Shown here: positions 44,079 to 63,251 of the stretch, piece by piece
How positions within the stretch are numbered: the first letter of the stretch is position 1
Layout of the letters: the number at the start of each line of letters is the position of its first letter
Assembly (NCBI RefSeq): GCF_021249345.1
Contig: NZ_CP089588.1
Location: 1,054,001 to 1,118,000, forward strand
DNA from: Halobacterium wangiae
Lineage (GTDB): Archaea > Halobacteriota > Halobacteria > Halobacteriales > Halobacteriaceae
Length of the DNA stretch: 64,000 nt
Direction: 5' to 3'
Notes under the pieces: generated by a model
Seen by the model: the letters and a program-made list of their open reading frames with translations, nothing else
Databases searched by the model: none
What the model was told of the DNA's origin: nothing
Made by a program: the position numbers and the translations under genes

Positions 44079-46325
44079 TTACAGTTGTGCGTGCTCGACC
44101 GCGTCCATCCCGGTGAGCGCCTCGTAGAGCGCGGCGTACGTGTCGGCGCAACTCTCCTCGGGGCTGCGGTGGGACGCACGGGTCGTCAGGGTGTCCCAGT
44201 CGCCGACGAGCGCGAGATGCTTCCGGGCTCGGGTGAGCGCGACGTTGAGACGCCGTGGCCCCTCTTTGGGGTGTTCGAGGAAGCCCGCGTTCCCCGCGGG
44301 GTTGCTGCGCGCGAACGAGACGACGACGGCCTCGCGCTCGCCGCCCTGGAAGGAGTCCACGGTGTCCACCGTCAGGCCGTGCGTGTCCCGGTCCAGGTTG
44401 CCGAGTCGCGAGCGGATTTCGCGCACCTGACCGCTGTACGCCGCGATGACGCCGACGTCCGCGGGAGCGACGCCAGAGTCGAGCAGGCTGGCGACGCGGT
44501 CTGCGACGACCGTTGCCTCCCGTGGGTTCCGCACCGACGCGCCGCGCTCCTCCCGCCGTTCGTCGCCTGCGACGTCCACGACCGAGACGGGCGGGAAGCC
44601 GTCGAGCGTCCAGTCAGCGTTCCGGTCGGCGGTCTCCAGTCGCCCGTCGTAGAACGTCTCGTTCGGGAACGTCGCGATGGCCTCGTGCATCCGGTACTGG
44701 CGGCGGAGTAGGACGGCCACGCGGTCCCCGTAGCGGGCGACGAGCGTCTCGAACAGCGACGGCCGCATCTCCCCCTCGCCGGCCTCCGTGACGCTGTACG
44801 GTGGGAGCTGGCGGTGGTCGCCCGCGAGCACGAGTTTCTCCGCACAGTTGTGCGCGATGGCGGTCGCGGCGCGACTCGCCTGCGTCGCCTCGTCGACGAC
44901 GGCCACGTCGAAGGCGTCCTGGTCGAACGCGGCCGCGCCGTTCGTCGTCGCCGCCACCACGTCGGCGTCGTCCACGGGCGTCTGGCGGTAGTGCTCGGCG
45001 ACGACGCGGTTCCGCGAGTGACGGCCGTAACGCGCGACGGTGACGTCCGGGTCGTCGGCGACGGCCGCGTGCAGCGTGCCCTCCTCGGCGTCGTCGAGCG
45101 TGCTGTCGCCGACGAGGAGGTTGTCCACGGCCTGGTTCGAGTGCGCGGTGACGAGCACGCGCTCGCCGCGTGCGACGGCGTGGGCGACGAACGCGACGAG
45201 CGTCCGCGTCTTCCCGGTGCCCGGCGGCCCGTGGATGCAGACCACGTCGTCGGCGGCGACGGCCCACCCGAGCGCCCGCAACTGGTAGTCGTTCAGGGCG
45301 ACGTCGGAGCGTCGCGCGCTCGGCAGGGCGCCGAACGAGAGGTCGCGCTCGCCGGTGAGCAGGCGGCGCTTCGCTGGGGTCTCCCACACCGCGTCGAGGG
45401 CGTCCCGGCGCCGGTCGTACGGCACGGGGTTCAACAGCGTGCGAAGCCAGAACGGCTCTGCGTCCGCGACGGCCACCGCGACTCGCCCGGGGTCGGCCAC
45501 GCGCTCCCACGCTGGCTGGAGCGTCACCGTCGGGCCGTCGACGTCCGTGACTCGCGCCGGAATCGGGAACGCCGCGTCGAAGGCGTCCACCACGACGCTG
45601 TTGTCGGGGTAGAGGCCGAGGTCGGCGACGAGGTCCACGTCCGCCGGGACGTCGTCGTCTGGCGCGTACTGGACGAGGAGTTCGGCTGGCCGGTCCGCGC
45701 CGTACGCGGTGGTGCTCACGAGGACGAACGGGCCGTCGACGGCGCCCTCGCCGACCAGTCGGCCGAGGTCGGCGTCCGCGTGGTCGGCCCAGTTCGCCGC
45801 TCGCTCGGCGTCGCGTTCGTCCGCGACGACCCCGCGGAGGTCCTCAAAGAAGGCGCGACGCTCCGGGCCGGCGAGCGGGTCGGCCGCCGCGACGGAGTCG
45901 GGTGGTGCGTCGACGCCCCCGAACGGGTCGCCGTCGGGTGCGTGCGCGGGGTGCCAGAAGCGGACGCGCCACGCGACCGCCGTCGCGACGACGTCGTCGA
46001 GCGCGCTGTACCGCTCCGTGCCGTCGAGTCCGAACGACTCGTCGTGCCACCCCACCGTCTCCGCGTCCGGGTTCCAGCGCACGTACTCGCCGGAGGGCGA
46101 GGGGCCGTCCTCGTCGTGCAGCGGGACGACGCGCCCCCGGCCGTCCGGGGCGTCCACGTCGACGACGCTCGCCGCGTGGTCGAGGCACGCGCGCACCTCG
46201 TCGGCGTCCGCGCCGTAGTACGCGCTCTCCGGCCGGAGCGTCCGCTCGGACGCGGCGAAGAGGGTGGCGTCGTGCAGCGACCACGCCTGGTAGAGCGGCG
46301 TCGTGTCCGGCGGAGACGAGGGCAT
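44079..46325 (-). CDS. DNA2/UPF1-like superfamily 1 helicase
   Basis: A 748-residue SF1 helicase of the UPF1/DNA2/SMBP2 group. A 360-residue N-terminal extension with no recognised motif precedes the motor: Walker A GPPGTGKT (about 365-372), motif II DEATQ (about 476-480), motif III GDHRQLPP, motif IV RQYRMHEAI and motif VI VALTRARKHL. It probably unwinds RNA or DNA 5' to 3'. The long N-terminal part is unusually rich in Asp and Val and is beta-rich, possibly an RNA-binding domain. Confidence 0.9.
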   Translation of the reverse strand: MPSSPPDTTPLYQAWSLHDATLFAASERTLRPESAYYGADADEVRACLDHAASVVDVDAPDGRGRVVPLHDEDGPSPSGEYVRWNPDAETVGWHDESFGLDGTERYSALDDVVATAVAWRVRFWHPAHAPDGDPFGGVDAPPDSVAAADPLAGPERRAFFEDLRGVVADERDAERAANWADHADADLGRLVGEGAVDGPFVLVSTTAYGADRPAELLVQYAPDDDVPADVDLVADLGLYPDNSVVVDAFDAAFPIPARVTDVDGPTVTLQPAWERVADPGRVAVAVADAEPFWLRTLLNPVPYDRRRDALDAVWETPAKRRLLTGERDLSFGALPSARRSDVALNDYQLRALGWAVAADDVVCIHGPPGTGKTRTLVAFVAHAVARGERVLVTAHSNQAVDNLLVGDSTLDDAEEGTLHAAVADDPDVTVARYGRHSRNRVVAEHYRQTPVDDADVVAATTNGAAAFDQDAFDVAVVDEATQASRAATAIAHNCAEKLVLAGDHRQLPPYSVTEAGEGEMRPSLFETLVARYGDRVAVLLRRQYRMHEAIATFPNETFYDGRLETADRNADWTLDGFPPVSVVDVAGDERREERGASVRNPREATVVADRVASLLDSGVAPADVGVIAAYSGQVREIRSRLGNLDRDTHGLTVDTVDSFQGGEREAVVVSFARSNPAGNAGFLEHPKEGPRRLNVALTRARKHLALVGDWDTLTTRASHRSPEESCADTYAALYEALTGMDAVEHAQL

Positions 46326-46756
46326 CTGGGGATGTGGACTGGGCGCCCGGGAGCCAAGTGCGTAGTGGTTTCCTCACAGCCGCCGGAGCGACCACCGGGT
46401 TCCGACGCACGGTTCCACGGCCACCGTGTTTAGATAAGGAATGAGACAGTTCATCGTTCTATTCTGTTATCTTATATTTTCCAGATTGAAGAACTGGACA
46501 CAGACTAACGGGAATATTTTCGCACCAGAGCACCAGAGAGCGCGTAATTAGTCACAGAACCGCTTCGTTGCAGAGCCCGAGAGCAGAGGTTGCACGAGAA
46601 CCCCGATACAGCCACATTCGAGAGCTCAATCTGGTATTTTCTGCACAAAATGGCTGAGAGACGGGAGATAGTTATGTCGAGTATGAATAATACCTCGTGG
46701 ACTGGTTGCTTGTGAGTGTTGGCGAGGAGAGTGCGACCCTGGGACGACCACAGGCC

Positions 46757-46778
46757 GTTACAAACATATCTTTGTAAC
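46757..46778. promoter_or_regulatory. Perfect inverted repeat, operator-like
   Basis: GTTACAAA and TTTGTAAC face each other over CATATC. The 8-bp arms with a 6-nt spacer are typical of dimeric helix-turn-helix operators. It lies about 378 nt before the hydrolase ATG and 432 nt before the helicase start, so its target gene is unclear. Confidence 0.5.
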
Positions 46779-47122
46779 GTCGAAGTCGTGGCAGATGTTG
46801 TCAGGATCGTTCGGCAGGCCCGAACAGAAATTCACGTGTGGTCGAGCGATACCACTGCGAGTCGGTAGAGGTGAACAGGTGGCGTTGGTTTCCCCGCCGG
46901 TACGCGGTATTTTTCGGATTTCTCGGTGGTGGCCCGATCTCCTGGTGGTCGGCCGGCGAATCGTTCCGGCGTGGCGAACAGATACGCGCGCATCTCGACG
47001 GCGCCAAATTATCGTTCCGTCGTGGTGAATCACGGGGTAGAGCCCCCGTTTCTGTGTTCTGTCGTACCTTCACGATTCGGTGCCGAGAGTCGCGACGGTG
47101 GCGAACACCGGGGTGACCAGCA

Positions 47123-47130
47123 GTTATTTG
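47123..47130 (+). promoter_or_regulatory. TATA box of the hydrolase gene
   Basis: GTTATTTG, 26-33 nt before the ATG at 47156; consistent with a leaderless mRNA. Confidence 0.5.
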
Positions 47131-47155
47131 GCGGCCGCTACAGACAGTTCTGGTG

Positions 47156-48067
47156 ATGACGCAGACAGCCTGGGTTCACATGCTCGGCGGCAGCGTCGAG
47201 TACGTCGAGAGCGAGAACTACCGGACGCGCACGCTGAAGGCCGGCGACGGCGAGAAGCCGCCGCTCGTGCTCCTGCACGGCATCGGCGGCCACGCCGAGA
47301 CGTACGTCAGGAACATGCTCCCGCTCGCGGAGGCCCTCGACGACCGCGCCGTCTACGCGATCGACTTCGTCGGGCACGGCTACTCCTCGCGGCCGACGGA
47401 CATCGACTACCACATCACGGACTACATGGACCACGTCGAGGAGTTCGTCCACGCGCTCGGCCACGACTCCGCGCACATCCACGGCGAGTCCCTCGGTGGC
47501 TGGGTCGCCGGCCGCCTCGGCCTCGACCGGCCGGAACTCGTCGAGACGGTGGGGCTCATCACGACCAGCGGCGTCTACCACATCGACACCTCCGGCGACG
47601 TCGAGGAGGACGCCAAGGCCGAGAGCATCGAGGGCATCGAGGACCTCTACGAGCGCAGCATGGAGATGCTCGACGAGGAACTCACCCGCGAGCGCGTCGC
47701 CGACCGCCTCCAGTGGCTGTTCGTCGAGGACGTCGACGAGGAACTCGTCGACATTCGCCAGGAGATCTACTCCCAGCAGGCCAACCAGGACGCGATGCGC
47801 CTCATCTACGAGACGTTCGTCGAGGACGTCAAGGACGAGGAGATGTACTTCACGACGGCGGAACTCCGGGAGATGGACCTCCCGACGCTCGTCATCCACA
47901 CCGAGCACAACCCGAGCGCGCAGAAGGAGCTCGTGGAGTACGTCCACGAACAGCTCCCGAACTCCGAGTACCACCTCTACGAGCACTCGGCGCACTGGCC
48001 GCAGTGGGAAGAACAGGACCGCTACCACGAGCACACCATCGACTTCCTGCAGAAGCACGGCGACTGA
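47156..48067 (+). CDS. Meta-cleavage product (ring-fission) hydrolase
   Basis: A 303-residue alpha/beta hydrolase with the signature of C-C hydrolases acting on extradiol ring-fission products (BphD, CumD, XylF type). The nucleophile S112 is in HIHGESLGGWVAG and the catalytic His, H280, in HSAHWPQWEEQDRYHEHTIDFL (family GHWAQWEH). In BphD the acid is the Asp of a WGRDD motif; here the corresponding stretch reads IHTEHNPS, so the acid has no obvious counterpart. It would split a 2-hydroxy-6-oxo-dienoate to 2-hydroxypenta-2,4-dienoate plus a carboxylic acid. The gene lies tail to tail with the extradiol dioxygenase on the other strand. Confidence 0.86.
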   Translation: MTQTAWVHMLGGSVEYVESENYRTRTLKAGDGEKPPLVLLHGIGGHAETYVRNMLPLAEALDDRAVYAIDFVGHGYSSRPTDIDYHITDYMDHVEEFVHALGHDSAHIHGESLGGWVAGRLGLDRPELVETVGLITTSGVYHIDTSGDVEEDAKAESIEGIEDLYERSMEMLDEELTRERVADRLQWLFVEDVDEELVDIRQEIYSQQANQDAMRLIYETFVEDVKDEEMYFTTAELREMDLPTLVIHTEHNPSAQKELVEYVHEQLPNSEYHLYEHSAHWPQWEEQDRYHEHTIDFLQKHGD

Positions 48068-48118
48068 CCCGCGGTCGCTCCGGCGCCGTTCTGCCGCCCC
48101 GGTTCCACCGCCCCGCCG

Positions 48119-49048
48119 TCACTCGAACTCGTCGCTGTGCTCGTGTGAGTCGCTGAACTTCCGTCCCTTCCCCCACCAGTAGAGCGCCTCGGGCATGTCC
48201 TCCTCCGTCCACGTCACCGGCTCCCAGTCGGGTTCGAAGATGAGGTAGCCGCCTGCGAATATCTCGACCTCGTGGCCCGCGGGGTCGTCCTGGTAGATGT
48301 AGTTCGCCTGGCTGATGCCGTGGTGGCCCGGCCCGCCCTTGATCTCGACGTCGTGTTCTTTCAGCACGTCCGCCGCGCGGAACAGGTCGCCGCGGGACTT
48401 CAGGTAGTACGCCACGTGGTTGAGCGACGGTTCCTCCGCCTCGACGAACGCGATCTCGTGGACGAGCGGCGACACACTCAGCCACTTCCCGACGTCGTCG
48501 CCCTCGATGAGCAGTTCCTCGCGGAGTTCGAAGTCGAGGACGTCCTGGAACCACTCCGAGCACTCCGCGACGTTCGGCACGTAGCAGTTCACGTGGTCGA
48601 TACGGCGCGCGCCCACGCCGCGGTCGACGAGCTTCTGGGGCTGGTTCTTCAGGCGCGAGCGCTGCTCCTTCGGGACGTCGGGCTCCTCGATGTCGTAGAA
48701 CAGTTCGAACGTCTGGTCGGCCGGCCCCGTGAACCGGATGGACTCGCCCTGTCCGGGTTCGACGCCGGCGTCCTGCCAGTCGACGTCGTAGCCGGAGTCC
48801 TCGACGCGCTCGGCGTACCGTTCGAGGTCCGCGGGCTCCTCGACGCGGAACGCGATGTGGCCGACGCCAGCCTCCTCGTCCTCCGTGAGGGTGAGCGAGA
48901 ACTTGTTGAAGTCACCCCAGCCGCGCAGGTAGACGCTGTCTCCCTCCCGGCACTCCTCCTCCAGTCCGAGGACGTCGTGGTAGTAGTCGTACGTCTCCGC
49001 GAGGTTCGGCACTAGTAGCTCTACGTGACCGAGGGTGCACACAGCCAT
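48119..49048 (-). CDS. Extradiol (catechol 2,3-) dioxygenase
   Basis: A 309-residue two-domain type I extradiol dioxygenase. The Fe(II) ligands H152, H211 and E262 match H153, H214 and E265 of XylE almost exactly in spacing; H242-H243 in GPGHHGIS and Tyr near 250 fit the active-site acid-base and substrate residues. The N-terminal domain (about 1-135) is a degenerate VOC copy. It cleaves a catechol next to the hydroxyls to a yellow muconic semialdehyde or ketone. The start ATG at 49048 follows a GATATATGCG box by 22-32 nt. Confidence 0.92.
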   Translation of the reverse strand: MAVCTLGHVELLVPNLAETYDYYHDVLGLEEECREGDSVYLRGWGDFNKFSLTLTEDEEAGVGHIAFRVEEPADLERYAERVEDSGYDVDWQDAGVEPGQGESIRFTGPADQTFELFYDIEEPDVPKEQRSRLKNQPQKLVDRGVGARRIDHVNCYVPNVAECSEWFQDVLDFELREELLIEGDDVGKWLSVSPLVHEIAFVEAEEPSLNHVAYYLKSRGDLFRAADVLKEHDVEIKGGPGHHGISQANYIYQDDPAGHEVEIFAGGYLIFEPDWEPVTWTEEDMPEALYWWGKGRKFSDSHEHSDEFE

Positions 49049-49179
49049 GGCAGAGAGTGTTCGACACGGGCGCATATATCTTACTCCGAGTCCAGAACGC
49101 CGGGACAGCGGGGGACGACAGCCGTCGGCGCGTCGGGGGAGGGCGAACCTATTTGTCGGCGCCGCCGCCAGTCCAGAGT
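49049..49179. promoter_or_regulatory. Divergent promoters, dioxygenase and hydratase
   Basis: CGCATATATC (49071-49080, reverse GATATATGCG) for the dioxygenase and CTATTTG (49149-49155) for the hydratase, each 22-31 nt before its start. Both predict leaderless mRNAs. No clear palindrome lies between them. Confidence 0.55.
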
Positions 49180-49959
49180 ATGTCACTGGGAGACGACGCG
49201 GTGGCCGACATCGCCGACGACCTCTACGACGCGCTCCGCTCCGGCGACCCCATCGCACCGCCGACGGACGAGTACGACATGGACATCTCGGACGCGTACG
49301 CCGTCCAGTCCGCGTTCGTGGACCGGCGGCTCGCCGACGGCGCGTCCGTTGTCGGCCACAAGGTCGGGCTGACGAACGAGGCCATCCAGGACCAGCTGGG
49401 CGTCGACGAACCGGACTTCGGACGCCTGCTGGACACGATGGTCGTCGAGGACGGGGTGGTCGACACCGACGACCTGCTGGCGCCGCGCGTGGAACCCGAA
49501 CTCGGCTTCCTGCTCGCCGAGGACCTGGCAGCGCCCGTCTCCTCGCTCGACGTCCTGCGCGCGACCGAGGCGGTCGTCCCCGTCGTGGAGGTCATCGACA
49601 GCCGCGTCCGGGACTGGAACATCGGCATCGAGGACACCGTCGCGGACAACGCGTCGAGCGCACTGTACGCGACCGGCGAGTCGACCCACCCGGTGGCGGG
49701 TCGGGACCTCTCCCTGGAGGCCGTGAAGCTGTACCGGAACGGGGAGGTAGTGGACTCGGGCGTCGGGGCGGCGGTGCTCGGTCACCCGGCGCGCGCCGTC
49801 GCGTGGCTGGCGAACACACTCGCGGACGTGGACGACAGCCTCCAGGCGGGCGAGATCGTCCTCAGCGGGTCGATGACGCCGGCCGTCGACGTCGAGGCCG
49901 GCAACGTGGTGACCGCGGAGTTCGGCGCGAGCGGGTCGGTCACGCTCACCGTCGACTGA
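49180..49959 (+). CDS. 2-oxopent-4-enoate hydratase
   Basis: A 259-residue fumarylacetoacetase-superfamily hydratase. It adds water to 2-hydroxypenta-2,4-dienoate to give 4-hydroxy-2-oxovalerate. Signatures are GHKVGLTNEAIQDQLG, EPELGFLLAEDL with the metal-binding Glu pair, and the PVVEVIDSRVRDWNIGIEDTVADNASS region (in parts). The protein is of normal MhpD/XylJ length. It is the first plus-strand gene of the block that also encodes the monooxygenase, aldolase and dehydrogenase. Confidence 0.9.
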   Translation: MSLGDDAVADIADDLYDALRSGDPIAPPTDEYDMDISDAYAVQSAFVDRRLADGASVVGHKVGLTNEAIQDQLGVDEPDFGRLLDTMVVEDGVVDTDDLLAPRVEPELGFLLAEDLAAPVSSLDVLRATEAVVPVVEVIDSRVRDWNIGIEDTVADNASSALYATGESTHPVAGRDLSLEAVKLYRNGEVVDSGVGAAVLGHPARAVAWLANTLADVDDSLQAGEIVLSGSMTPAVDVEAGNVVTAEFGASGSVTLTVD

Positions 49960-50013
49960 ATTCGGCGTCCTGCGGGGATGAATCGACTGCCCTGCCCGAG
50001 AAATCAGCCACTA

Positions 50014-50020
50014 GGTATAA
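50014..50020 (+). promoter_or_regulatory. TATA box of the hydroxylase operon
   Basis: GGTATAA, about 30-36 nt before the ATG at 50050. It supports that start over an ATG 15 nt upstream, whose distance to the box would be too short. Confidence 0.5.
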
Positions 50021-50049
50021 GTGAACGACCGTGAATGATACAGTCGCGT

Positions 50050-51570
50050 ATGCCAGTTAGAACCAAGGAGGAGTACCGGCAAGGTCTCCGAGACGGACGA
50101 GAGGTCTACTACAAGGGCGAACTCGTCGAGGACGTCACGGAGCACCCGGCCACGCGGGGGATGGTCGAGACGCAGGGCGAGCTGTTCGACCTGCAGAGCG
50201 ACCCCGAACACGAGGACCTGCTCACGTTCGAGTCGCCGTCGACCGGCGACCGGGTCCCCATCTTCTACGAGAAACCCACCTCGAAGGAGGACCTCGCGCA
50301 GCGCCGGAAGGCGTCGAAGCTCTGGATGGACTACACGTGCGGGATGTCCGGGCGCGCCAACGACTTCCTCGCGAACGGCGTGACGGGGATGGCAATCGGC
50401 CACGAACTGTTCGCCGACGAGGACGCCGACCACGACTTCTCGGAGAACGTCGAGGACTACTACGAGTACTGCCGCGAGAACGACGTCTGCCTCACGCACG
50501 CGCTCATCGACCCCCAGATCGACCGCTCGGAGGCGTCGTCGTTCCGCCTCGAGGACGACTCCGCCGACCGCCCGGGCGCTGTCCGGAAGGTCGACGAGGA
50601 CGACGAGGGCATCGTCGTCAGCGGCGCGCGCATGCTCGCCACGCTCGGCCCGCAGGCCGACGAGATACTGCTCTACCCGTTCGGCTACTACGGCGAGGAC
50701 GAGGAGGACCAGGCGCTGGCGTTCGCCGTCTCCGCCGACGCCGACGGCGTCCGCCAGATCTGCCGGCCACAGCTCTCGCGCAACGACGAGCGCAACCACC
50801 CGCTGTCCAGCCGGTTCGACGAGATGGACACGTTCGTCGTGCTCGACGAGGTACACGTCCCGTGGGAGCGCGTGTTCATCGACGGCGACATCGAAGCTGC
50901 GAACGCGTGGCGGGACAAGACCCAGACCGCGTACGCGGGACTCACGTACCACCAGACCGCCGTGAAGGACCTCGCGAAGGCGGAGTTCTGTTTCGGCGTG
51001 GCGACGATGCTCGCCGAGAGTACGGGCATCGAGGAGTACTTCCACGTCCAGGCGAAGCTCGGCGAGATATCCACGATGGTCGAGCAGATCCGGGCCTGCG
51101 TGCAGGCCGCGGAGGCACAGGCCTACGAGTTCGGCGACTACGTGATTCCGGAGCCACGGCCGCTGTTCGCGGTGACGGCGTCGTTCCCGGACCAGTTCCC
51201 GCGCATCGTCGACATCATCCGCGACCTCGGCGGCAGCGGCCTCATCGGCGTCCCCCACTGGGAGGACCTCGAGGCAGAGAACCCGCTGGGCGGCGACGTG
51301 GAGACGTACTTCCGCGGGAAGGACATCGAGGCCAACGAGCGCCTCGGCGTCCAGAAGCTCGCCTACGAGATCGCCATCGGCTCGCTGGGCAGCCGCGAGG
51401 AACTGTACGAGCGGTTCTACACGGGCGGCCCGATGCGCGTGAAGTCGAACATGTGGAAGAACCACCCGGAGAAGGAGGCACTGAAAGAGCGCGTCCGGGA
51501 GTACGGACTCCAGGGCGCCGACGAACCTGCGGCGTCCGCCGCGGAGCAGTCCGCCGCGGACGACGACTGA
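50050..51570 (+). CDS. 4-hydroxyphenylacetate 3-hydroxylase (HpaB)-family monooxygenase
   Basis: A 506-residue FADH2-dependent flavin monooxygenase with acyl-CoA dehydrogenase fold. Relatives (HpaB, phenol and 2,4,6-trichlorophenol hydroxylases) add a hydroxyl ortho to a phenol to give a catechol. Segments such as KLWMDYTCGMSGRANDF, HALIDPQIDRS, SGARMLATLGPQADEI, LDEVHVPWERVFI and GGSGLIGVPHW fit the family over its length. Such enzymes need reduced flavin from a separate reductase (HpaC); none is encoded next to it. It is followed by the acetaldehyde dehydrogenase after 11 nt, so one transcript is likely. Confidence 0.9.
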   Translation: MPVRTKEEYRQGLRDGREVYYKGELVEDVTEHPATRGMVETQGELFDLQSDPEHEDLLTFESPSTGDRVPIFYEKPTSKEDLAQRRKASKLWMDYTCGMSGRANDFLANGVTGMAIGHELFADEDADHDFSENVEDYYEYCRENDVCLTHALIDPQIDRSEASSFRLEDDSADRPGAVRKVDEDDEGIVVSGARMLATLGPQADEILLYPFGYYGEDEEDQALAFAVSADADGVRQICRPQLSRNDERNHPLSSRFDEMDTFVVLDEVHVPWERVFIDGDIEAANAWRDKTQTAYAGLTYHQTAVKDLAKAEFCFGVATMLAESTGIEEYFHVQAKLGEISTMVEQIRACVQAAEAQAYEFGDYVIPEPRPLFAVTASFPDQFPRIVDIIRDLGGSGLIGVPHWEDLEAENPLGGDVETYFRGKDIEANERLGVQKLAYEIAIGSLGSREELYERFYTGGPMRVKSNMWKNHPEKEALKERVREYGLQGADEPAASAAEQSAADDD

Positions 51571-51581
51571 CCACACCACGA

Positions 51582-52511
51582 ATGTCACAACTGAGCGCAG
51601 CAATCGTCGGTCCCGGCAACATCGGGACCGACCTGATGTACAAGATACTCGACCGCGGTGAACACGTCGAACTGGAGGCGATGGTCGGCATCCTCCCGGT
51701 CGAGGAGTCCGACGGCCTCCAGGCCGCCCAGGAGGCGGGCGTCGACGTCGGGACGGAGGGCATCGAGAGCGTCAGAGAGCGCGCCGGCGACCTCGATATC
51801 GTCTTCGAGGCGACGAGCGCGAGCATCCACACCGACCACGCGCCCGTCTACGACGAACTCGGCCTGTTCGCCGTCGACATGACGCCCGCCGCCGTCGGCC
51901 CGCTCGCGGTCCCCGTCGTGAACCTCGACGACGTGGCCGACGACGTGAACAACGTGAACATGATCACCTGCGGGGGCCAGGCGACGATCCCCCTCGTCCA
52001 CGCCGTCGACCGGGTCGCCGACGTGCAGTACGCGGAGATCGTGGCGACCATCGCGTCGAAGAGCGCAGGACCAGGCACCCGACACAACATCGACGAGTTC
52101 ACGCAGACGACGGCGAACGGCATCGAGCGGGTCGGCGGCGCCGACGAGGGGAAGGCCATCATCGTGTTGAACCCCGCGGAGCCACCCATCATGATGCGCA
52201 ACACCGTCTATACGGAGGTGCCGGCCGACGCGGACGTCGAGGAGATCCGGGACTCCGTCTCGCGCATCGAGGCGGAGGTGCAGTCGTACGTGCCCGGCTA
52301 CGAGGTGACCCTCGACCCGCTCGTGAAGGAGAACCACGACCTCGACCTCGACGACACGAAGGTGCTCACGACGATGCTCCAGGTCGAGGGCGAGGGCCAG
52401 CACCTCCCCGAGTACGCTGGCAACCTCGACATCATGACGAGCGCCGCGCTCGGGGCAGCGGAGCGAATCGCTGAGCGCCGCGGCGCCGACGTCGCGGAGG
52501 TGGTAGAGTGA
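51582..52511 (+). CDS. Acetaldehyde dehydrogenase, acetylating
   Basis: A 309-residue DmpF/MhpF-type enzyme converting acetaldehyde, CoA and NAD+ to acetyl-CoA. The GPGNIGTDL dinucleotide motif is at residues 10-18, the catalytic C130 in MITCGGQATIPLVHA, and SKSAGPGTRHNIDEFTQTT and GKAIIVLNPAEPP are family blocks. It normally channels acetaldehyde from the aldolase encoded next; the two genes overlap by 4 nt (GTGA). Confidence 0.96.
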   Translation: MSQLSAAIVGPGNIGTDLMYKILDRGEHVELEAMVGILPVEESDGLQAAQEAGVDVGTEGIESVRERAGDLDIVFEATSASIHTDHAPVYDELGLFAVDMTPAAVGPLAVPVVNLDDVADDVNNVNMITCGGQATIPLVHAVDRVADVQYAEIVATIASKSAGPGTRHNIDEFTQTTANGIERVGGADEGKAIIVLNPAEPPIMMRNTVYTEVPADADVEEIRDSVSRIEAEVQSYVPGYEVTLDPLVKENHDLDLDDTKVLTTMLQVEGEGQHLPEYAGNLDIMTSAALGAAERIAERRGADVAEVVE

Positions 52512-53551
52512 CCGACGACGTCCGACTGGTGGACATGACGCTGCGGGACGGCATGCACGCCGTCGACCACCAGTTCACGCCCGACCAGATGGCGGACGTC
52601 GCGGGCGCGCTCGACGCCGCGAACATGGACGTGGTGGAGGTGTCCCACGGCGACGGCATGGGTGGGTCCTCCATCAACTACGGCTTCGCGGCCGCGTCCA
52701 CGGAGGAGTACCTCGACGCCGTCCGCCCGGAACTGACGGACACGGAACTGTCCGTGCTCCTGCTGCCGGGTATCGGCACCGTCGAGGACCTCGAACTCGC
52801 GGCGAGCAAGGGCGCAGACGTGCTCCGCATCGCGACGCACGTCACGGAGGCCGACGTCTCCGCGGAGCACTTCGACTACGCGACGGACATGGGCCTGGAG
52901 GCCAACGGCCTCCTGATGCTCTCGCACATGGCCGACCCCGAGACCGTCCTCGAACAGGCCAGCCTGATGGAGGAGTACGGCGCGGACGCCGTCTACGTGA
53001 TGGACTCCGCGGGCGCGTTGCTCCCGGACGGCGTCCGGGACCGCGTCGGCCTGCTCGCCGACGAACTGTCCATCGACGTCGGGTTCCACGCGCACAACAA
53101 CCTCGGCCTGGGCATCGGGAACACGCTCGCCGGCCTCGACGCGGGCGCCGTCACCGTCGACGGCTGCCTGCGGGGCCTCGGCGCTGGCTCCGGGAACGCC
53201 CAGATGGAGGTGCTCGTCGGCACGCTCGAGAAGGCGGGCTACGACGTCGGCCCCGACCTGTTCGGGACGATGGACGCCGCCTCGGACGTGCTCGAACCGA
53301 TGCTGACCGCAGAGACGATGCCGGAACTCGACAACGACTCGCTCATCCTCGGCTACGCCGGGGTGTACTCGTCGTTCCTCCGGCACACCCGACGCGCCGC
53401 CGAACAGTTCGACATCGACCCGCGGGACATCCTCGTGGAACTCGGCGAACTCGGCGTCGTCGGCGGACAGGAAGACATGATCACGGACGTCGCGGCGCGA
53501 CTCGCGGCGGAGCGAGCGGACGCCGCGGAGGCTAACAATGCAAATACCTAA
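52508..53551 (+). CDS. 4-hydroxy-2-oxovalerate aldolase
   Basis: A 347-residue DmpG/MhpE-type class II aldolase that splits 4-hydroxy-2-oxovalerate to pyruvate and acetaldehyde. The metal and substrate site shows MTLRDGMHAV (residues about 9-18), HGDGMGGSSINYG, and the metal-binding AHNNLGLGIGNTLAG. GTG at 52508 overlaps the acetaldehyde dehydrogenase stop as GTGA. The last 60 residues form the communication domain that docks to the dehydrogenase. Completes the lower meta-cleavage pathway. Confidence 0.96.
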   Translation: MTDDVRLVDMTLRDGMHAVDHQFTPDQMADVAGALDAANMDVVEVSHGDGMGGSSINYGFAAASTEEYLDAVRPELTDTELSVLLLPGIGTVEDLELAASKGADVLRIATHVTEADVSAEHFDYATDMGLEANGLLMLSHMADPETVLEQASLMEEYGADAVYVMDSAGALLPDGVRDRVGLLADELSIDVGFHAHNNLGLGIGNTLAGLDAGAVTVDGCLRGLGAGSGNAQMEVLVGTLEKAGYDVGPDLFGTMDAASDVLEPMLTAETMPELDNDSLILGYAGVYSSFLRHTRRAAEQFDIDPRDILVELGELGVVGGQEDMITDVAARLAAERADAAEANNANT

Positions 53552-53565
53552 GATTACAGGAACGA

Positions 53566-53578
53566 TTTCGTCACGAAA
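53566..53578. promoter_or_regulatory. Inverted repeat before the transporter operon
   Basis: TTTCG-TCA-CGAAA, perfect 5-bp arms, flanked by GA and ATC that extend the symmetry. It lies about 11 nt upstream of a TATA element CTATAATAC (53588-53596), a position where an activator or repressor would contact the basal factors. Confidence 0.45.
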
Positions 53579-53587
53579 ATCCAGTAA

Positions 53588-53596
53588 CTATAATAC
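53588..53596 (+). promoter_or_regulatory. TATA box of the liv-type transporter operon
   Basis: CTATAATAC, 24-32 nt before the ATG at 53620. A GGAGGTG sequence at 53608-53614 would serve as Shine-Dalgarno if the mRNA starts upstream of it. Confidence 0.5.
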
Positions 53597-53619
53597 CGGC
53601 CCCACGGGAGGTGTGTCGT

Positions 53620-54930
53620 ATGCCAACACGGCGTAGACAGTTCCTCAAGTCCGGACTAGCGGGTACAGCTGCAGCGCTCGTCGCGGGCTGCACGACGGGG
53701 ACCACGGAGGAGGAGACCACGACCACCGACAGCGGCGGCGACACGACGACCACCACGAGCGGCGGCGACCCCGACGGCGACAGCGACGAGCAGATCCGCA
53801 TCGGGTTCATCCACCCGCTCTCGGGCGGCTACTCGACGCTCGGCGAACCCCAGGAGCTCGGTGGCCAGCTCGCCGTCGAACAGCTCAACGCGAACGGCGG
53901 CATCGACGGCAAGGAGGTCGTCGGCTTCCACGAGGACTCCGCGGGCGACGCGACCACCGCCCAGCAGAAGGCCCGCCTCCTCATCAACGACCGCGACGTC
54001 GACGTGCTGACCGGCGAAGCACAGAGCTCCGCGGCGCTCGCCATCCAGCAGGTCGCCGACGAGGAGGGCATCGTCTTCGGGAACCAGGCCGGCGCCGACC
54101 CGATCACGAAGTCCCGGTGCAACCGGTACACGTTCCGCTACGAACTGCGCACCGGCCAGGTCGCCCGCGCCACCGCGCCGTGGGCCGTCGAGAACCTCGG
54201 CACCAAGATCTGGTTCCACGTCGCCGACTACGCGTACGGCAACGCGTTCCTCGACGGCTGGAAGGAGGTGCTCTCGGACTACGACTACGAGGAGGTCAAC
54301 ACCACGAAGTCCGACCTCGGTGCGAACGACTTCTCCTCGTACATCACCCAGATCCAGAACTCCGACGCGGACTTCCTCGCGCTCGGCATGGCGGGCGGCG
54401 ACCTCGTGAAGTTCAACCAGCAGGCCTCGTCGTACAACCTGCGTGACGCCGTCGACATCGTCGCCGGGACGAACGACTTCCGCTCCGTGCGCCTCGGCGG
54501 CGGCAGCGGCGTGGTCGGCACGTACTCCGGCGTGCGCTACTTCGAGGGGTACGACAACGAGCTGAACCGCCAGTTCGTCACGAGCTTCATCGACGCGTAC
54601 GACCAGATCCCGGCCAACCACGCGGAGTCCCAGTGGACGATGGTCCACGAGATCCTCGCGCCCGCCATCGAGGCCGCCGGGTCGACGAACGCCGACGACC
54701 TCATCGCGGAGCTCGAGGGGATGGAGTTCGACTCGCCGATGGGCGGCGGGACGATGCGCGCCTGCGACCACCAGGCCGAACGCCCAGTGCCGGTCGCGCA
54801 GATCAGCGAGCCCCAGGACCTCGAGGTGCTGCAGGGTAAGGGCACCGAGATTCCGAGCCTCGACATCAAACAGACCATCTCCGGCGCCGACGCCATCGAG
54901 GCCTGCGACAGTATCGACTGCTCGCTATAA
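53620..54930 (+). CDS. Branched-chain-type ABC transporter substrate-binding lipoprotein
   Basis: A 436-residue type I periplasmic-binding-fold lipoprotein. The twin-arginine signal RRRQFLK (4-10) and lipobox VAGC (C24) indicate Tat export and anchoring. After a Thr/Ser/Gly-rich linker (25-60), residues 62-430 form the two-lobe fold of LivK/AmiC-like proteins (IRIGFIHPLSGGYSTLGEPQELGGQLAVEQLNANGG in parts). Family members bind amino acids, amides or aromatic acids. Placement directly after the meta-cleavage genes suggests an aromatic substrate. ATG at 53620, after a GGAGGTG element. Confidence 0.9.
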   Translation: MPTRRRQFLKSGLAGTAAALVAGCTTGTTEEETTTTDSGGDTTTTTSGGDPDGDSDEQIRIGFIHPLSGGYSTLGEPQELGGQLAVEQLNANGGIDGKEVVGFHEDSAGDATTAQQKARLLINDRDVDVLTGEAQSSAALAIQQVADEEGIVFGNQAGADPITKSRCNRYTFRYELRTGQVARATAPWAVENLGTKIWFHVADYAYGNAFLDGWKEVLSDYDYEEVNTTKSDLGANDFSSYITQIQNSDADFLALGMAGGDLVKFNQQASSYNLRDAVDIVAGTNDFRSVRLGGGSGVVGTYSGVRYFEGYDNELNRQFVTSFIDAYDQIPANHAESQWTMVHEILAPAIEAAGSTNADDLIAELEGMEFDSPMGGGTMRACDHQAERPVPVAQISEPQDLEVLQGKGTEIPSLDIKQTISGADAIEACDSIDCSL

Positions 54931-56990
54931 TGAGCGGGCTGGCCTCCGGCGCGGCACGTCGAGCGGGAGTGGCCGCAGCCGGGTCGCTCGCCGGTCTCGT
55001 GGCCATCTTCGCAGTGGTGACGCTGGCCGGTATCGACCCCGTGACGTTCGGCGTCCAGGTACTCAACGGACTCACACTCGGCGGTATCTACGTCCTCATC
55101 GCCATCGGCCTGTCGCTCATCTTCGGCGTGATGAACGTCGTGAACTTCGCCCACGGGTCGCTGTGGATGCTCGGGGCGTACCTCGCGTTCGCCGTCGTCG
55201 GCGCGAGCGTCACGGTGCCGGGGTTCGGCGTAATCGCCGGGTCGTTCTGGCTCGCGCTGCTCGTCGCACCGCTGCTCGTCGGCGCCGTCGGTTTCGGCAT
55301 CGAGTACGCGACGTTCCGACCGCTGTACGGGCGGAACCCGCTCTACCACATCCTGCTGACGTTCGGGTTCACGCTCGTCTTCGTGGACGTCGTCGAGTAC
55401 TTCTGGGGGAGTGGCTTCAACTCCGTCGCGCCCCCGGAGCTGTTCCTCGGTGCGATACAGCTCGGCCCCGCGTACTTCCCGAAGTACCGGCTGTTCGTCC
55501 TCGGCGCGGCGCTCGGACTGTCCGGGCTCGTGTGGGTCGTCCTGAAGTTCACGAACTTCGGGCTCATCGTCCGCGCTGGCTCGCAGAACCGCCAGATGGC
55601 GCGCTCGCTGGGCATCAACGTCACGTGGTACTACACGGGCGTGTTCGTCCTCGGCGCGGCGCTCGCGGGCGTCGCCGGCGCGCTGTCGGCGCCGCTGTTC
55701 CCCATCGTCCCGTCGATGTGGACGCGGGCCATCATCCTGGCGTTCATCGTCGTCATCGTCGGCGGCCTCGGCTCGTTTCGGGGCGCCGTCGTCGCCGGTC
55801 TCGGCGTCGGGGTCGTCGAGAGCCTCGGGTCGACGTACCTCCCCGAGTTCTCCGGCTACCTCGTCTACATCCTGATGTTCACCGTGTTGCTCGTGCGGCC
55901 GTACGGCATCTTCGGCCGCGAGGAGTCCGTCGAGGCGGCCGAGACGAACGTCGAGATCGACCGGGCGCTGCCGACCATCGGCGCGAAGAGCCCGATATTC
56001 CTGGGCGCGCTCGCGCTGTTCGCGGTGTTCCCGTTCCTCACCCAGACGTTCCTCTCGTCGTACTACCTCGGCGTGATGGTGCAGGCGCTGGCGCTGGCGA
56101 CGCTCGTGCTGGGCCTGGACCTCGTCACGGGGTACACGGGCCTCATCTCGTTCGGCCACGCGATGTTCATCGGCCTGGGCGCGTACGTCACCGCGCTCGT
56201 GCTCGTGAACGTCACGGGGCTGCTCCCGGTCGCCATCCTGGTCGCCGTCGTCGTCACGGCGCTGCTGGCGTGGGCGGTCGGCTTCCTCGGCGTGCGCGTC
56301 GGAGGTGTCTACTTCGCGATGCTCACGCTCGCGGTCGCCCAGATCGTCCACCAGATGGTCTTCGACTTCCCGAGCCTCACGGGGAGCAACGACGGGCTCG
56401 GCTTCGCGCTGCCGCCCGTTCCGTTCCTCAACCTCGGGGACACCACGACGCTCTACTACGTCAGCCTGCTGACGCTCGCCGCGCTGTACCTGCTCGCAGT
56501 GCGCGTGCTCAGGTCGCCGTTCGGCACGTCGCTGGTCGCCATCCGCGACAGCGAACACCGCATGGAGGCGCTGGGCTACGACGTTGACAAGTACAAGCGC
56601 CGCGCGTTCATGCTCTCCGGTGCCTACGGCGGCATCGGGGGCGTGCTGTACGCGATGTACTTCACGTTCGTCGACCCCACCGTGCTCAAATGGACGGTGA
56701 GCGGCGACGCCATCGTGATGATGGTGCTCGGCGGCATGGGGACGCTGTACGGCCCCATCGTCGGCGCCATCGCGTTCGTCTTCCTGCGCAACGGGCTCTC
56801 CATCTACGTCTCCCACTGGGAGTTCGTCGCAGGCGCCATCTTCATCTTCGCGGTCATCTTCATGCCGCGCGGCCTCGTCTCGCTCCCGTTCGACGCCCTC
56901 CGCGGCGACGGCGCCGGGGGGTCGAGCACCGAGGAGCCACCGGAGCCGGCGGCGAACCCCCAGTCCGGAGGTGACGGCGATGTCGAGTGA
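54930..56990 (+). CDS. Fused LivH-LivM-type ABC transporter permease
   Basis: A 686-residue protein joining the two permeases of a branched-chain-type importer. The LivH half (about 1-330) contains GLTLGGIYVLIAIGLSLIFGVMNVVNFAHGS (in parts) and SLGINVTWYY. The LivM half (about 345-640) contains DLVTGYTGLISFGHAMFIGLGAY and SPFGTSLVAIRDSEHRMEALGYDVDKYK. About 8 plus 10 transmembrane helices are predicted, and the tail is Gly/Ser/Pro-rich. In most organisms these are separate genes. The ATG overlaps the substrate-binding protein stop (TAATG). Confidence 0.92.
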   Translation: MSGLASGAARRAGVAAAGSLAGLVAIFAVVTLAGIDPVTFGVQVLNGLTLGGIYVLIAIGLSLIFGVMNVVNFAHGSLWMLGAYLAFAVVGASVTVPGFGVIAGSFWLALLVAPLLVGAVGFGIEYATFRPLYGRNPLYHILLTFGFTLVFVDVVEYFWGSGFNSVAPPELFLGAIQLGPAYFPKYRLFVLGAALGLSGLVWVVLKFTNFGLIVRAGSQNRQMARSLGINVTWYYTGVFVLGAALAGVAGALSAPLFPIVPSMWTRAIILAFIVVIVGGLGSFRGAVVAGLGVGVVESLGSTYLPEFSGYLVYILMFTVLLVRPYGIFGREESVEAAETNVEIDRALPTIGAKSPIFLGALALFAVFPFLTQTFLSSYYLGVMVQALALATLVLGLDLVTGYTGLISFGHAMFIGLGAYVTALVLVNVTGLLPVAILVAVVVTALLAWAVGFLGVRVGGVYFAMLTLAVAQIVHQMVFDFPSLTGSNDGLGFALPPVPFLNLGDTTTLYYVSLLTLAALYLLAVRVLRSPFGTSLVAIRDSEHRMEALGYDVDKYKRRAFMLSGAYGGIGGVLYAMYFTFVDPTVLKWTVSGDAIVMMVLGGMGTLYGPIVGAIAFVFLRNGLSIYVSHWEFVAGAIFIFAVIFMPRGLVSLPFDALRGDGAGGSSTEEPPEPAANPQSGGDGDVE

Positions 56991-57738
56991 CGCCATCCTC
57001 GAGACCCACGAACTGACGAAGGCGTACGGCGGACTGCTCGCCGTGGACAACGTCGACCTCACCGTCGGCCGCACGGAGGTCCGGAGCGTCATCGGACCGA
57101 ACGGCGCCGGGAAGTCGACGCTGTTCAACCTCGTCAACGGCTTCCTCGAACCGACCGCGGGCACCGTCGAGTTCGACGGCCGCGACGTGACCGGACTCCC
57201 CGCCTACGAGCGCTGTCAACTCGGCATGGGGCGGTCGTTCCAGGTGAACGACTTCTTCGGGAGCCTCACGGTCCGCGAGAACGTGCGGATCGGCGTGCAG
57301 GCGACGTCGAACAAGCGGACGAATCCGCTGACGCCTGCGAGCGGCCTCTCACCGGTCAACGAACGAACCGATGAGATCCTCGAACGCGTCGAACTCGCAC
57401 AGTTCGCCGAGGAGCAGGCGAGTGCGCTCTCCTACGGGGACCAGCGCAAGCTGGAACTCGCGCTCGCGCTCTCCTCGGACCCCGAGTTGCTGTTGCTCGA
57501 CGAACCGACCGCGGGCATCGGCCCCGACCAGACCCGCGAGATCGCGAACCTCATCCAGCGGATCGCCGCGGACAAGGCAGTGCTGCTCACCGAACACGAC
57601 ATCGACATGGTCATGTCCACCTCCGACCGCATCACCGTCATCCACCTCGGCCAGGTCATCGCCGAGGGCACGCCCGAAGAGATCGCCGCGAACGAGGACG
57701 TCCAGCAGGCGTACATCGGGGGGATGGACGATGAGTGA
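56980..57738 (+). CDS. ABC transporter ATPase, LivG type
   Basis: A 252-residue ATPase. Walker A is GPNGAGKS (39-46), the signature-like LSYGDQRKLELALAL is near 150, Walker B is LLLLDEPTAG and the switch His follows in LLTEHDIDMV. The start ATG at 56980 follows an internal GGAGGTGA in the permease gene, which it overlaps by 11 nt; a GTG nine nt earlier is an alternative. The long loop at about 110-120 is typical for LivG. Confidence 0.93.
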   Translation: MSSDAILETHELTKAYGGLLAVDNVDLTVGRTEVRSVIGPNGAGKSTLFNLVNGFLEPTAGTVEFDGRDVTGLPAYERCQLGMGRSFQVNDFFGSLTVRENVRIGVQATSNKRTNPLTPASGLSPVNERTDEILERVELAQFAEEQASALSYGDQRKLELALALSSDPELLLLDEPTAGIGPDQTREIANLIQRIAADKAVLLTEHDIDMVMSTSDRITVIHLGQVIAEGTPEEIAANEDVQQAYIGGMDDE

Positions 57739-58444
57739 CTCCCTGCTCGAAGTGGAGGGAATCACCGCCGGCTACGAGACCAACGTCGTCCTCCGGGACG
57801 TCTCACTCGACGTCGACGAGGGCGAAGTCGTCTCCATCGTCGGCCGCAACGGCGCCGGGAAGACGACGACGCTGCGCACCATCATGGGCCAGCTCGCCGT
57901 CGACTCGGGGCACATCCGCTACCGCGGCGAGGAGATCACGAACGCCCCACCGAACGAGGTGTACCGCCGGGGCATCGGTCTCGTCCCCGAACACCGGGAG
58001 ATCTTCCCCGACCTCACCGTCGAGGAGAACCTGGAGGTCGGGGGCGTGACGACCGACGACAACTGGCTCTCGGTGGCGGGCGCCTACGACTACTTCCCCC
58101 GGCTCCGGGAGCGCCGCACGAACCGCGGCGCGCAGCTCTCGGGTGGCGAACAGCAGATGCTCGCCATCGCGCGGAGCCTCCGCGGCGCGACCGACCTGCT
58201 GTTGCTCGACGAACCGACCGAGGGGCTCGCCCCCCAGATCGTCGAGTCCATCCTCGACATCATCGACCAGTTGCGCGCGGACGGCGTCACCGTCCTGCTG
58301 GTCGAGCAGAACCTCCAGGCCGTCCTCGAGGTCGCGGACCGCCACTACGTGCTGGCGGACGGCAACATCGTCTTCGAGGGAACCACTGCAGAACTGGAGG
58401 CCGCAGACGACGTCCGACAGCGCTACCTCGGCGTCTCCGAGTAA
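57731..58444 (+). CDS. ABC transporter ATPase, LivF type
   Basis: A 237-residue ATPase pairing with the LivG-type subunit. Walker A is GRNGAGKT (38-45), the signature LSGGEQQMLAIARSL near 137-151, and Walker B LLLLDEPTEGLAP. The start overlaps the livG-type gene by 8 nt. The block ends 65 nt before a convergent gene. Confidence 0.93.
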   Translation: MSDSLLEVEGITAGYETNVVLRDVSLDVDEGEVVSIVGRNGAGKTTTLRTIMGQLAVDSGHIRYRGEEITNAPPNEVYRRGIGLVPEHREIFPDLTVEENLEVGGVTTDDNWLSVAGAYDYFPRLRERRTNRGAQLSGGEQQMLAIARSLRGATDLLLLDEPTEGLAPQIVESILDIIDQLRADGVTVLLVEQNLQAVLEVADRHYVLADGNIVFEGTTAELEAADDVRQRYLGVSE

Positions 58445-58509
58445 TCAGAGCGGCTCGCTGTCAGCGCTTCTTCAGTTTTGAACGGCGATCCGCGAGGTAG
58501 CGCGAGAAG

Positions 58510-58989
58510 TCAGAGTGGGCGCTGCCGGAGCGTCGGCGGTCGCATCCGCGCGGCCGACGCGTGCTGGCGCGCGTCGAGGATTCTACGCAGTATCGTACTC
58601 GTCGAGAGCACCGCACCCTCGAAGTCGACGTCGGCGGGGTCCGCCCGCTCGACGGTGCAGTCGAGGCCGTGGGCGTCGAGGGCCGCCGCGAGGTCGGCCT
58701 CGTCGTGGTGCTGGTCGTGGCCGAGGACGACGACGTCGGGGTCAATCTCCTCGAGTGGGACGAAGATGTCCGAGGGGTGGCCGACGTGGGCCTCGTCGAC
58801 GGGGTCGAGGGCGGCGACCATGCGGCGACGCTGTTCGTCGCCGAGCACTGGCGACGGCTTGTGCGTCACGTTCTCCGAACGGGCGACGATGACGTGGAGT
58901 TCGTCGCCACGAGCGGCCGCCTGTTCGAGGTAGTCCACGTGCCCGGGGTGGAGCACGTCGAAGGTCCCCTGTGCGAGTACGGTGGTCAT
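58510..58989 (-). CDS. ribL: FAD synthase
   Basis: A 159-residue archaeal FMN adenylyltransferase making FAD from FMN and ATP (or CTP). The nucleotidyltransferase motif HPGH is at residues 14-17 ([13 protein letters not shown]), followed by [16 protein letters not shown] and [10 protein letters not shown]. Archaeal RibL is separate from riboflavin kinase. Its placement between the importer genes and the IclR regulator may reflect the demand for FAD of the flavin hydroxylase, but this is inference. Confidence 0.9.
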
Positions 58990-59047
58990 GGGGCTGTGTG
59001 TGCGTATCGAGTACGCCGCGGGCCCATTTCACGATTGCGGTGTGTTG

Positions 59048-59815
59048 TCACGTGTACGTCGCGTTGATCTCGATGATGTTCGCGACGCTGACGACGCGGT
59101 CCGGGAGTTCCTCGCGGAAGTAGTCGCCCTTCAGTCGACCGGCCGGTCCGGAGACGCTGATTGCGCCCGCGACGCGGCCGTCGGTCGTGGTGAGCGGGGC
59201 GGCGACACAACGCATGCTGTCGAGGCGCTCCTCGTCGTCGAAGGCGTAGCCGCGCGCACGGATCTCCTCGAGTTCGCCCTCCAGTTCGTCGCGGTCCGTC
59301 GTCGTCCGGGGGGTGACGGCGGGGAGGCCGTGGCGCTCGTAGATGGCCTCGCGGTCCGCCTCGTCCATGTGTGCGAGCATCGCCTTCCCGAACCCCGTCG
59401 TGTGGAGGTACACTCGCTTGCCCGGGTAGGAGTCGAGTTTGACCGCCTTCTCGCCGGTCGCCTTGTAGACGTAGACGCCGTAGCCGTGTTCGTGCATCGC
59501 GAGGTTGGCGTGCTCGCCGGTCTCCGCCGCGAGTTCACGGATCTCGGGTTTCGCGATCTGGTAGAGCGTCTGGTTGCGCGCGTGCTCCCCGAACGTCAGG
59601 TGTCGCAGGCCGATCCGGTACTCGTTTCTCGTCTCGTCCTTGACGACGTACTCCTCCTCGACGAGCGTCCGCAGGTGGTTGTGGACGGTGCTCTTCGGCA
59701 GGTCGAGGTGGTTGGCGAGCTCGGTGACGCGCGCGCCGCCGAGAGCCTCCAACCCCTCGAGGACGCGGAACGTCGTGCGGACGGCGTCGACTGTGTTCTT
59801 GCCCCGGGTTGTCAT
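59048..59815 (-). CDS. IclR-family transcriptional regulator
   Basis: A 255-residue regulator. An N-terminal winged helix-turn-helix (about 10-70, TELANHLDLPKSTVHNHLRTL) is followed by the IclR effector domain (about 85-250) with the HTTGFGKAMLAHM and GRVAGAISVSGPAGRL segments. IclR proteins often respond to aromatic or short acids and control catabolic operons. It is the only specific regulator near the meta-cleavage island and the most probable controller of it. It diverges from the lactonase-like gene. Confidence 0.91.
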   Translation of the reverse strand: MTTRGKNTVDAVRTTFRVLEGLEALGGARVTELANHLDLPKSTVHNHLRTLVEEEYVVKDETRNEYRIGLRHLTFGEHARNQTLYQIAKPEIRELAAETGEHANLAMHEHGYGVYVYKATGEKAVKLDSYPGKRVYLHTTGFGKAMLAHMDEADREAIYERHGLPAVTPRTTTDRDELEGELEEIRARGYAFDDEERLDSMRCVAAPLTTTDGRVAGAISVSGPAGRLKGDYFREELPDRVVSVANIIEINATYT

Positions 59816-59906
59816 GGTACGGAACTACCTGTACAATCGGTCACCACCCCTATGAATGTTCGGCCATACTGAACGATGTCGGCGGTCGAAGCGTCACTGA
59901 CCCTAG

Positions 59907-59913
59907 ATTTATC
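59907..59913 (+). promoter_or_regulatory. TATA box of the lactonase-like gene
   Basis: ATTTATC, 25-31 nt before the ATG at 59938. Upstream, GTTC (59858-59861) and GAAC (59871-59874) form a weak inverted repeat in the IclR/lactonase intergenic region. Confidence 0.45.
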
Positions 59914-59937
59914 GGGTGTCGAACTGTCCCTCGACGT

Positions 59938-60756: not shown

Positions 60757-60759
60757 GTC

Positions 60760-61389: not shown

Positions 61390-61793
61390 ACGCACGCACT
61401 CTCGGCCACCCTCAAAGGCGTTCCGTCGACGGCCACCGCCGGGCCATTCCAGATAGTCGATATCCTGATAGGAATTGATTGTTGGCAGCTGACGAACTAT
61501 TTACCACGTAGCAGAAACTCTCGGTGAGAAGTTCTGATTTAGTCGGCTTGAGCGCCGGTGAGGCGCAGATTCCACCCCGGGACCCGAGACCGAGAATGGA
61601 GAGACAGAGAACGCCCAAACCCACCATTAAACCCCCTGAAATCCCGAATTCGTCAGAATTCCAGCCCTGGAACAGAGCGTACCGGCGATAACGTATGTCT
61701 GATTTCGAGTATACTACGTTAGTTTTGATTAGTCGGGGCATCGCGACAGTTTCCACGACTGTTCGTCGCGGCGGAGTCGTCGGCGACGGCGCG
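61390..61793. other. Gene-free AT-richer stretch with palindromes
   Basis: A 404-nt stretch with no convincing gene. It contains GAATTC-GTCA-GAATTC (61646-61661), an inverted repeat, and a hexamer-rich AT tract. On the minus strand a reading frame of 114 codons exists but lacks the acidic codon bias of its neighbours. It may be non-coding or a decayed mobile element. Confidence 0.5.
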
Positions 61794-63059: not shown

Positions 63060-63251
63060 ATGACCTGTCCGTACCTGGCGTACCGCAGCGAGGCCGGCGG
63101 CGAGTCCTTCGACACCGAGCGGGCGTACTGCACCGCCGCCGACCGGTTCGTACAGGCGATGCGCGCGGACGTCTGCAACGACCGCTACGACCTCGACCAC
63201 GCCGAGGACTGTGAGATATACCTGGCCCACGCCGACGGTGGGACGTCGTGA
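63060..63251 (+). CDS. Small Cys-containing haloarchaeal protein
   Basis: A 63-residue acidic protein with C3, C24, C39 and C50, spaced as if for a metal site or disulfides. Function unknown. It overlaps the next gene by 4 nt (GTGA), so the two are translationally coupled. Confidence 0.65.
   Translation: MTCPYLAYRSEAGGESFDTERAYCTAADRFVQAMRADVCNDRYDLDHAEDCEIYLAHADGGTS

Follow-up and report, generated by a model that had tools for sequence, protein, structure and literature searches.

Aerobic ring cleavage in archaea has so far been known mainly from the gentisate route of haloarchaea and from the phenol route of Saccharolobus, part of which is unassigned: meta-cleavage of phenol has been shown in the latter, but homology did not reveal which proteins convert the ring-fission product (PMC7820114). 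Here we describe six adjacent genes in a 64,000-nucleotide stretch of the Halobacterium wangiae genome (contig NZ_CP089588.1, positions 1,054,001 to 1,118,000; hereafter the window), which encode enzymes of known kinds; such a full set is scarcely described in archaea. Judging from their sequences, these genes encode a well-supported meta-cleavage route with pyruvate and acetyl-CoA as its end products, and the island on which they lie is likely to form a catabolic unit of its own, serving to degrade a substituted phenol. The original prediction, made from the letters of the window, had proposed an apparently complete six-gene pathway at 47156-53551. All six open reading frames were intact at that place, and a homologue was found for each step; nevertheless, no flavin reductase gene is among the six, and the putative module reaches ~61.4 kb on a larger island.

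The locus shares features with several described systems, but is identical to none of them. The phenol meta pathway of Saccharolobus solfataricus likewise provides an archaeon with a catechol 2,3-dioxygenase (C23O) (PMC3859572, PMC7820114), but it employs a multi-subunit monooxygenase cluster, and its steps after ring fission lack assignments by homology, whereas the window has a homologue for every step. The gentisate pathway of Haloferax D1227 and Haloarcula D1 also represents aerobic aromatic catabolism in haloarchaea, albeit with other ring-cleavage chemistry and genes (reviewed in PMC4005966). In the Aph alkylphenol pathway of Rhodococcus, encoded on a genomic island, an HpaB-family two-component hydroxylase supplies an extradiol dioxygenase, after which a lower meta pathway follows; nevertheless, the ring-fission product is handled by a dehydrogenase (AphD) and no hydrolase, AphA has the catalytic Tyr, and the reductase gene aphB is adjacent (PMC6710988). 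In uncharacterised bacterial clusters (Sulfitobacter alexandrii plasmid NZ_CP018081, Paraburkholderia, and Priestia aryabhattai plasmid NZ_CP072474), genes for an HpaB with Phe at the catalytic Tyr position, a hydrolase of the same family, a hydratase, an acetylating acetaldehyde dehydrogenase and an aldolase are adjacent, and the same functional gene set with a LigB-type dioxygenase was found in Sulfitobacter, Priestia, Paraburkholderia and Rhodobacteraceae. These clusters differ from that of the window in that the dioxygenase is of the LigB/MhpB type (VOC in the window), the hydrolase has Asp in its catalytic triad, and the proteins are ~34-53% identical to their counterparts in the window. 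Those of Sulfitobacter and Paraburkholderia, unlike the window, are also adjoined by a gene of a PF01613-like flavin reductase family. We found no paper on a haloarchaeal meta-cleavage gene set in the open-access literature searched, most subscription journals being outside that search.

The island (46326-61793, ~15.4 kb) lies between a helicase gene (44079-46325) and an M50 protease gene (61794-62963) of the source genome (G000), a single-contig archaeal assembly of 3.11 Mb with high GC content and acidic proteins, which may be without plasmids. In three congeners the helicase and protease genes adjoin, with a gap of 48 bp in G005 and ~2 kb in G003 and G008, and no island gene was found between them, while the whole island is present in the same gene order in the sister species G001. 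The segment was either gained by the lineage of G000 and G001 or lost by the others. The proteins of the six pathway genes are 85-96% identical between G000 and G001, and the ratios of nonsynonymous to synonymous substitution rates (dN/dS) of 0.09-0.22 indicate purifying selection; as the gene order is also kept, the clustering of these genes is not due to chance. The GC content at third codon positions (GC3) of the island genes is 0.92-0.96, and both GC3 and protein acidity are equal to or above those of the flanking genes. Conserved TATA-like boxes precede the hydrolase, dioxygenase, hydratase, HpaB and transporter genes.

The genes for acetaldehyde dehydrogenase (acetylating; 51582-52511) and 4-hydroxy-2-oxovalerate aldolase (52508-53551), both on the forward strand, overlap by 4 bases. 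Their products scored well above the NCBIfam cut-offs (TIGR03215, 399 against 282; TIGR03217, 463 against 286), the former retains C130, and in the latter R13, D14, H17, H194, H196 and Y283 are in place in the alignment to DmpG, together with the DmpG communication domain (PF07836). By these scores, residues and domain, the two proteins qualify as a DmpFG-type pair. The dioxygenase gene (48119-49048) is on the reverse strand, divergent from the hydratase gene, the other five pathway genes being on the forward strand. Its product has a two-domain VOC fold with the 2-His-1-Glu iron ligands H152, H211 and E262, and qualifies by family as a type I (VOC) extradiol dioxygenase of the catechol 2,3-dioxygenase kind, with a TIGR03211 score (321.0) barely above the cut-off (320.2). 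The catalytic residues originally listed for the dioxygenase, dehydrogenase and aldolase were therefore all present. A single-sequence scan of genome contigs with the dioxygenase returned no relatives. The predicted 2-hydroxypenta-2,4-dienoate (2-oxopent-4-enoate) hydratase (49180-49959) belongs to the FAH family, with DmpE as the best NCBIfam match, and a tree placed it within a haloarchaeal hydratase clade, separate from a clade of decarboxylase-like paralogues.

The alpha/beta hydrolase (47156-48067) is predicted to be a meta-cleavage-product (C-C bond) hydrolase from its fold and from the neighbourhood of its bacterial relatives. The top structural matches to its AlphaFold2 (AF2) model, which had a predicted local distance difference test score (pLDDT) of 92.5, were CarC (Z 34.1), DxnB2 (33.6) and BphD (32.8), also CumD, although other alpha/beta hydrolases score just slightly below the C-C hydrolases. 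The strongest evidence for the role comes from a motif scan of bacterial and archaeal genomes, in which the presence of a dioxygenase was not a search criterion: an extradiol dioxygenase gene was present at 64 of the 79 loci recovered, all bacterial, and lay within 2.5 kb in 57 cases. Such a gene also stands beside the hydrolase gene in the window and in the genomes G240 and G307. The HpaB-family FADH2-dependent oxygenase, of the 'GRxxDF' type, is encoded at 50035-51570, with the ATG at 50050 being the more likely start because of a TATA-like box at ~50016 and the HpaB alignment. Its two domains (PF11794, 300 bits; PF03241, 152 bits) both exceeded the gathering scores, and it matched Protein Data Bank entry 2yyg with an E-value of 3.5e-95.

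In the route that we infer, the Liv-type transporter would bring in the aromatic substrate, and HpaB, receiving FADH2 from another protein, a reductase that is perhaps the one encoded at 60760-61395, would convert it into a catechol by hydroxylation. The ring would then be opened adjacent to the hydroxyls by the VOC dioxygenase, and the hydrolase would cut a C-C bond to yield 2-hydroxypenta-2,4-dienoate and a carboxylic acid, which would be formate, acetate or a longer acid according to the substituent on the ring. Finally, the hydratase would form 4-hydroxy-2-oxovalerate, from which the aldolase-dehydrogenase pair would produce pyruvate and acetyl-CoA with acetaldehyde being channelled. A hydrolytic branch is proposed since the hydrolase is present and no gene for a semialdehyde dehydrogenase or decarboxylase was found beside it in the window cluster; formate or a side-chain acid should therefore be released as a third product. 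Of the conversion of a phenol to pyruvate and acetyl-CoA that had been suggested originally, the end products stand, but this third product has to be added, and a substituted phenol is the probable natural substrate.

Several observations weigh against such a module. The family names first proposed hold for the dehydrogenase, the aldolase and the dioxygenase, which passed the cut-offs, but the hydratase (258 against an equivalog cut-off of 409 for DmpE) and the oxygenase (400 against 480, and under both HpaB equivalog cut-offs) fall in the right family below them, and the hydrolase matched general alpha/beta-hydrolase models only, HsaD being the best with 88 against 400. The hydrolase keeps Ser113 and His281 but has Asn at the Asp position of the Ser-His-Asp triad. 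In the oxygenase, R107 and H155 are kept while F111 replaces the catalytic Tyr, and F216-G217 occupies the place of the Ser-Thr pair expected to bind the carboxylate of 4-hydroxyphenylacetate (4-HPA), so that neither the Arg-Tyr-His set nor the Ser-Thr pair of a 4-hydroxyphenylacetate 3-hydroxylase is present (for the functional meaning of these residues, see PMC6710988, citing a Thermus structure). Phe in place of the Tyr is common to all 15 complete hydrolase-linked HpaBs examined, and the Deinococcus HpaB adjoining hpaD has Tyr and Ser-Thr. By these residues the HpaB of the window belongs to a separate subfamily, whose substrate is not readable from sequence; with Phe at the catalytic Tyr position and without the 4-HPA carboxylate pair, the name 'phenol hydroxylase' originally given to it is too specific. 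Furthermore, no PF01613 (HpaC/PheA2-type) flavin reductase was found in the 3.11-Mb assembly. The best candidate for the missing reductase is the flavin adenine dinucleotide (FAD)-binding oxidoreductase (60760-61395, reverse strand; PF00970), an extra copy beside the one present in relatives: of 14 genomes searched, G000 and G001 alone have the extra copy, and every other genome with a match has a single one. The extra copy is suggestive only, because the island is common to both genomes, which belong to sister species; the protein is linked to HpaB by co-location alone, and its AF2 model was poor (pLDDT 52) and was not used. Finally, the Liv-type transporter might instead carry amino acids or urea-like compounds.

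Other readings of the locus have to be weighed against a substituted-phenol module. The substrate could be a hydroxyphenyl-alkanoate or a like acid with the side chain next to the hydroxyl, in which case hydrolysis would free a dicarboxylate, as happens in the Mhp route. We regard this as possible but doubtful: where bacteria combine this HpaB type with this hydrolase family, the dioxygenases are MhpB-like, whereas the dioxygenase of the window is of the VOC type, not the LigB type, and there is neither a CoA ligase nor matching transporter evidence. A plain phenol pathway, close to the one originally proposed and leading from phenol via catechol and 2-hydroxymuconic semialdehyde, with release of formate by hydrolysis, to pyruvate and acetyl-CoA, is unlikely, even if the dioxygenase narrowly passes the catechol 2,3-dioxygenase cut-off. 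A hydrolase branch without a dehydrogenase is usual for substituted catechols, as in the cases of XylF, BphD and MhpC. Certain HpaB-family enzymes such as PheA do hydroxylate phenol, but the characterised Rhodococcus AphA, PheA, NphA and HpaB retain Arg-Tyr-His (PMC6710988), whereas the protein of the window has Phe.

It is quite improbable that HpaB acts on a non-phenol, say as a detoxifying or biosynthetic enzyme, and simply adjoins a lower pathway fed by another upper route. The hydrolase homologues of G240 and G307 stand beside a C23O gene and, in place of HpaB, genes for a Rieske ring-hydroxylating dioxygenase, implying that upper routes are swapped; nevertheless, the HpaB gene in the window is directly upstream of the dehydrogenase and aldolase genes and reads into them, its product is conserved as well as those of the other island genes (95% identity between G000 and G001), and no second ring hydroxylase could be made out among the island genes. 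Least probable of all is that the hydrolase is inactive or serves in another role owing to the Asn, which is found in all four haloarchaeal sequences, since Asn also occurs in 30 of the 79 bacterial relatives (Asp in 48, Ser in one), 19 of these 30 have a dioxygenase gene within 2.5 kb, the Ser and His of the triad are invariant among the relatives, and dN/dS is 0.125. The Asn-bearing enzyme may still work like a meta-cleavage-product hydrolase. Among the neighbouring dioxygenases, Asn goes with 16 of the VOC and three of the LigB superfamily, and Asp with 30 LigB and four VOC, a link that is not independent evidence because the tree needs just two changes. A cholesterol pathway of the Hsa type was rejected, as HsaA belongs to a different family and the HsaD score is far under the cut-off.

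In a survey of 391 haloarchaeal genomes, the aldolase was found in 23 genomes of nine genera (78-96% identity), the hydrolase in four, and an HpaB of the window type in two. The hydrolytic, HpaB-fed version, present in 2 of the 391, is the rare one. The original description of such gene sets as poorly described in archaea thus holds for this version, but not for meta-cleavage as a whole, which is known in S. solfataricus and whose lower genes are present in these 23 haloarchaea. In most of the other aldolase-bearing genomes, the lower genes adjoin C23O paralogues, an aldehyde dehydrogenase, a PF04909 protein and a further gene of the FAH family. This commoner cluster, with a C23O, a PF04909 protein, an aldehyde dehydrogenase, two FAH-family genes, an acetaldehyde dehydrogenase and an aldolase, looks like a protocatechuate 2,3-cleavage route and resembles the pra pathway of Paenibacillus (PMC12455638); the window cluster differs from pra in being without the dehydrogenase and decarboxylase genes and in having the hydrolase and HpaB. 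The commoner cluster (loci L065-L081) occurs in several families, often near an AOR-family gene. A second locus in the source genome (L027, C1:2820500-2840400) carries a 42%-identical C23O, a PF04909 protein, an IclR regulator, an AMP-binding ligase and a DASS-type transporter, and no aldolase was found near it.

On the question whether the cluster is shared by haloarchaea or was acquired from bacteria, the haloarchaeal aldolases formed a single, fully supported clade on a long branch, in which the window sequence grouped with species of another family and not with the congeners G011 and G012. This placement suggests that the genes passed from one haloarchaeon to another and did not come from bacteria. 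A recent bacterial origin was rejected, given the single clade on its long branch, the 45-53% identity of bacterial aldolases, and the GC3 and acidity of the island, which equal or exceed those of its flanks.

The remaining island genes are conserved in G001 as well. The Liv-type ATP-binding cassette transporter (53620-58444, forward strand; NCBIfam Liv/Urt families) comprises a substrate-binding protein (53620-54930; PF13458), a fused permease (54930-56990) and two ATPases (56971-57738 and 57734-58444). On the reverse strand, a cytidylyl/adenylyltransferase-family nucleotidyltransferase (58510-58989; TIGR00125 domain, nearest solved relative 3glv) is possibly, as we presume, a RibL-like FAD synthase; if truly an extra FAD synthase, it would suit an FADH2-dependent HpaB. 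It is followed by an IclR-family protein (59048-59815, reverse strand; PF01614/PF09339; 96% identity to the G001 copy), which presumably governs expression of the island; visual inspection of the promoter alignments revealed no common IclR operator. Divergent from the latter is a gene for an AttM/AiiA-like lactonase of the metallo-beta-lactamase (MBL) fold (59938-60756, forward strand; NF045700, 166 bits, under the cut-off of 390), and the Sulfitobacter cluster too has an MBL-fold gene downstream. A BKACE-family gene (63248-64000, forward strand) adjoining the M50 gene is kept in congeners without the island and lies outside it.

A complete hydrolytic meta pathway that can be read by homology on one island would provide a testable archaeal system, with a bearing on the clean-up of saline oil and phenol waste. 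It is tempting, if rather speculative, to regard this mobile haloarchaeal island as a new branch of aromatic catabolism, in which a 'DF' HpaB subfamily, an unrelated PF00970-type flavin reductase and an archaeal meta-cleavage clade including an Asn-triad C-C hydrolase would act on a substrate handled by no known HpaB pathway. In haloarchaea, upper pathways, of either HpaB or Rieske type, appear to have been swapped onto a lower pathway that has long been resident in the group.

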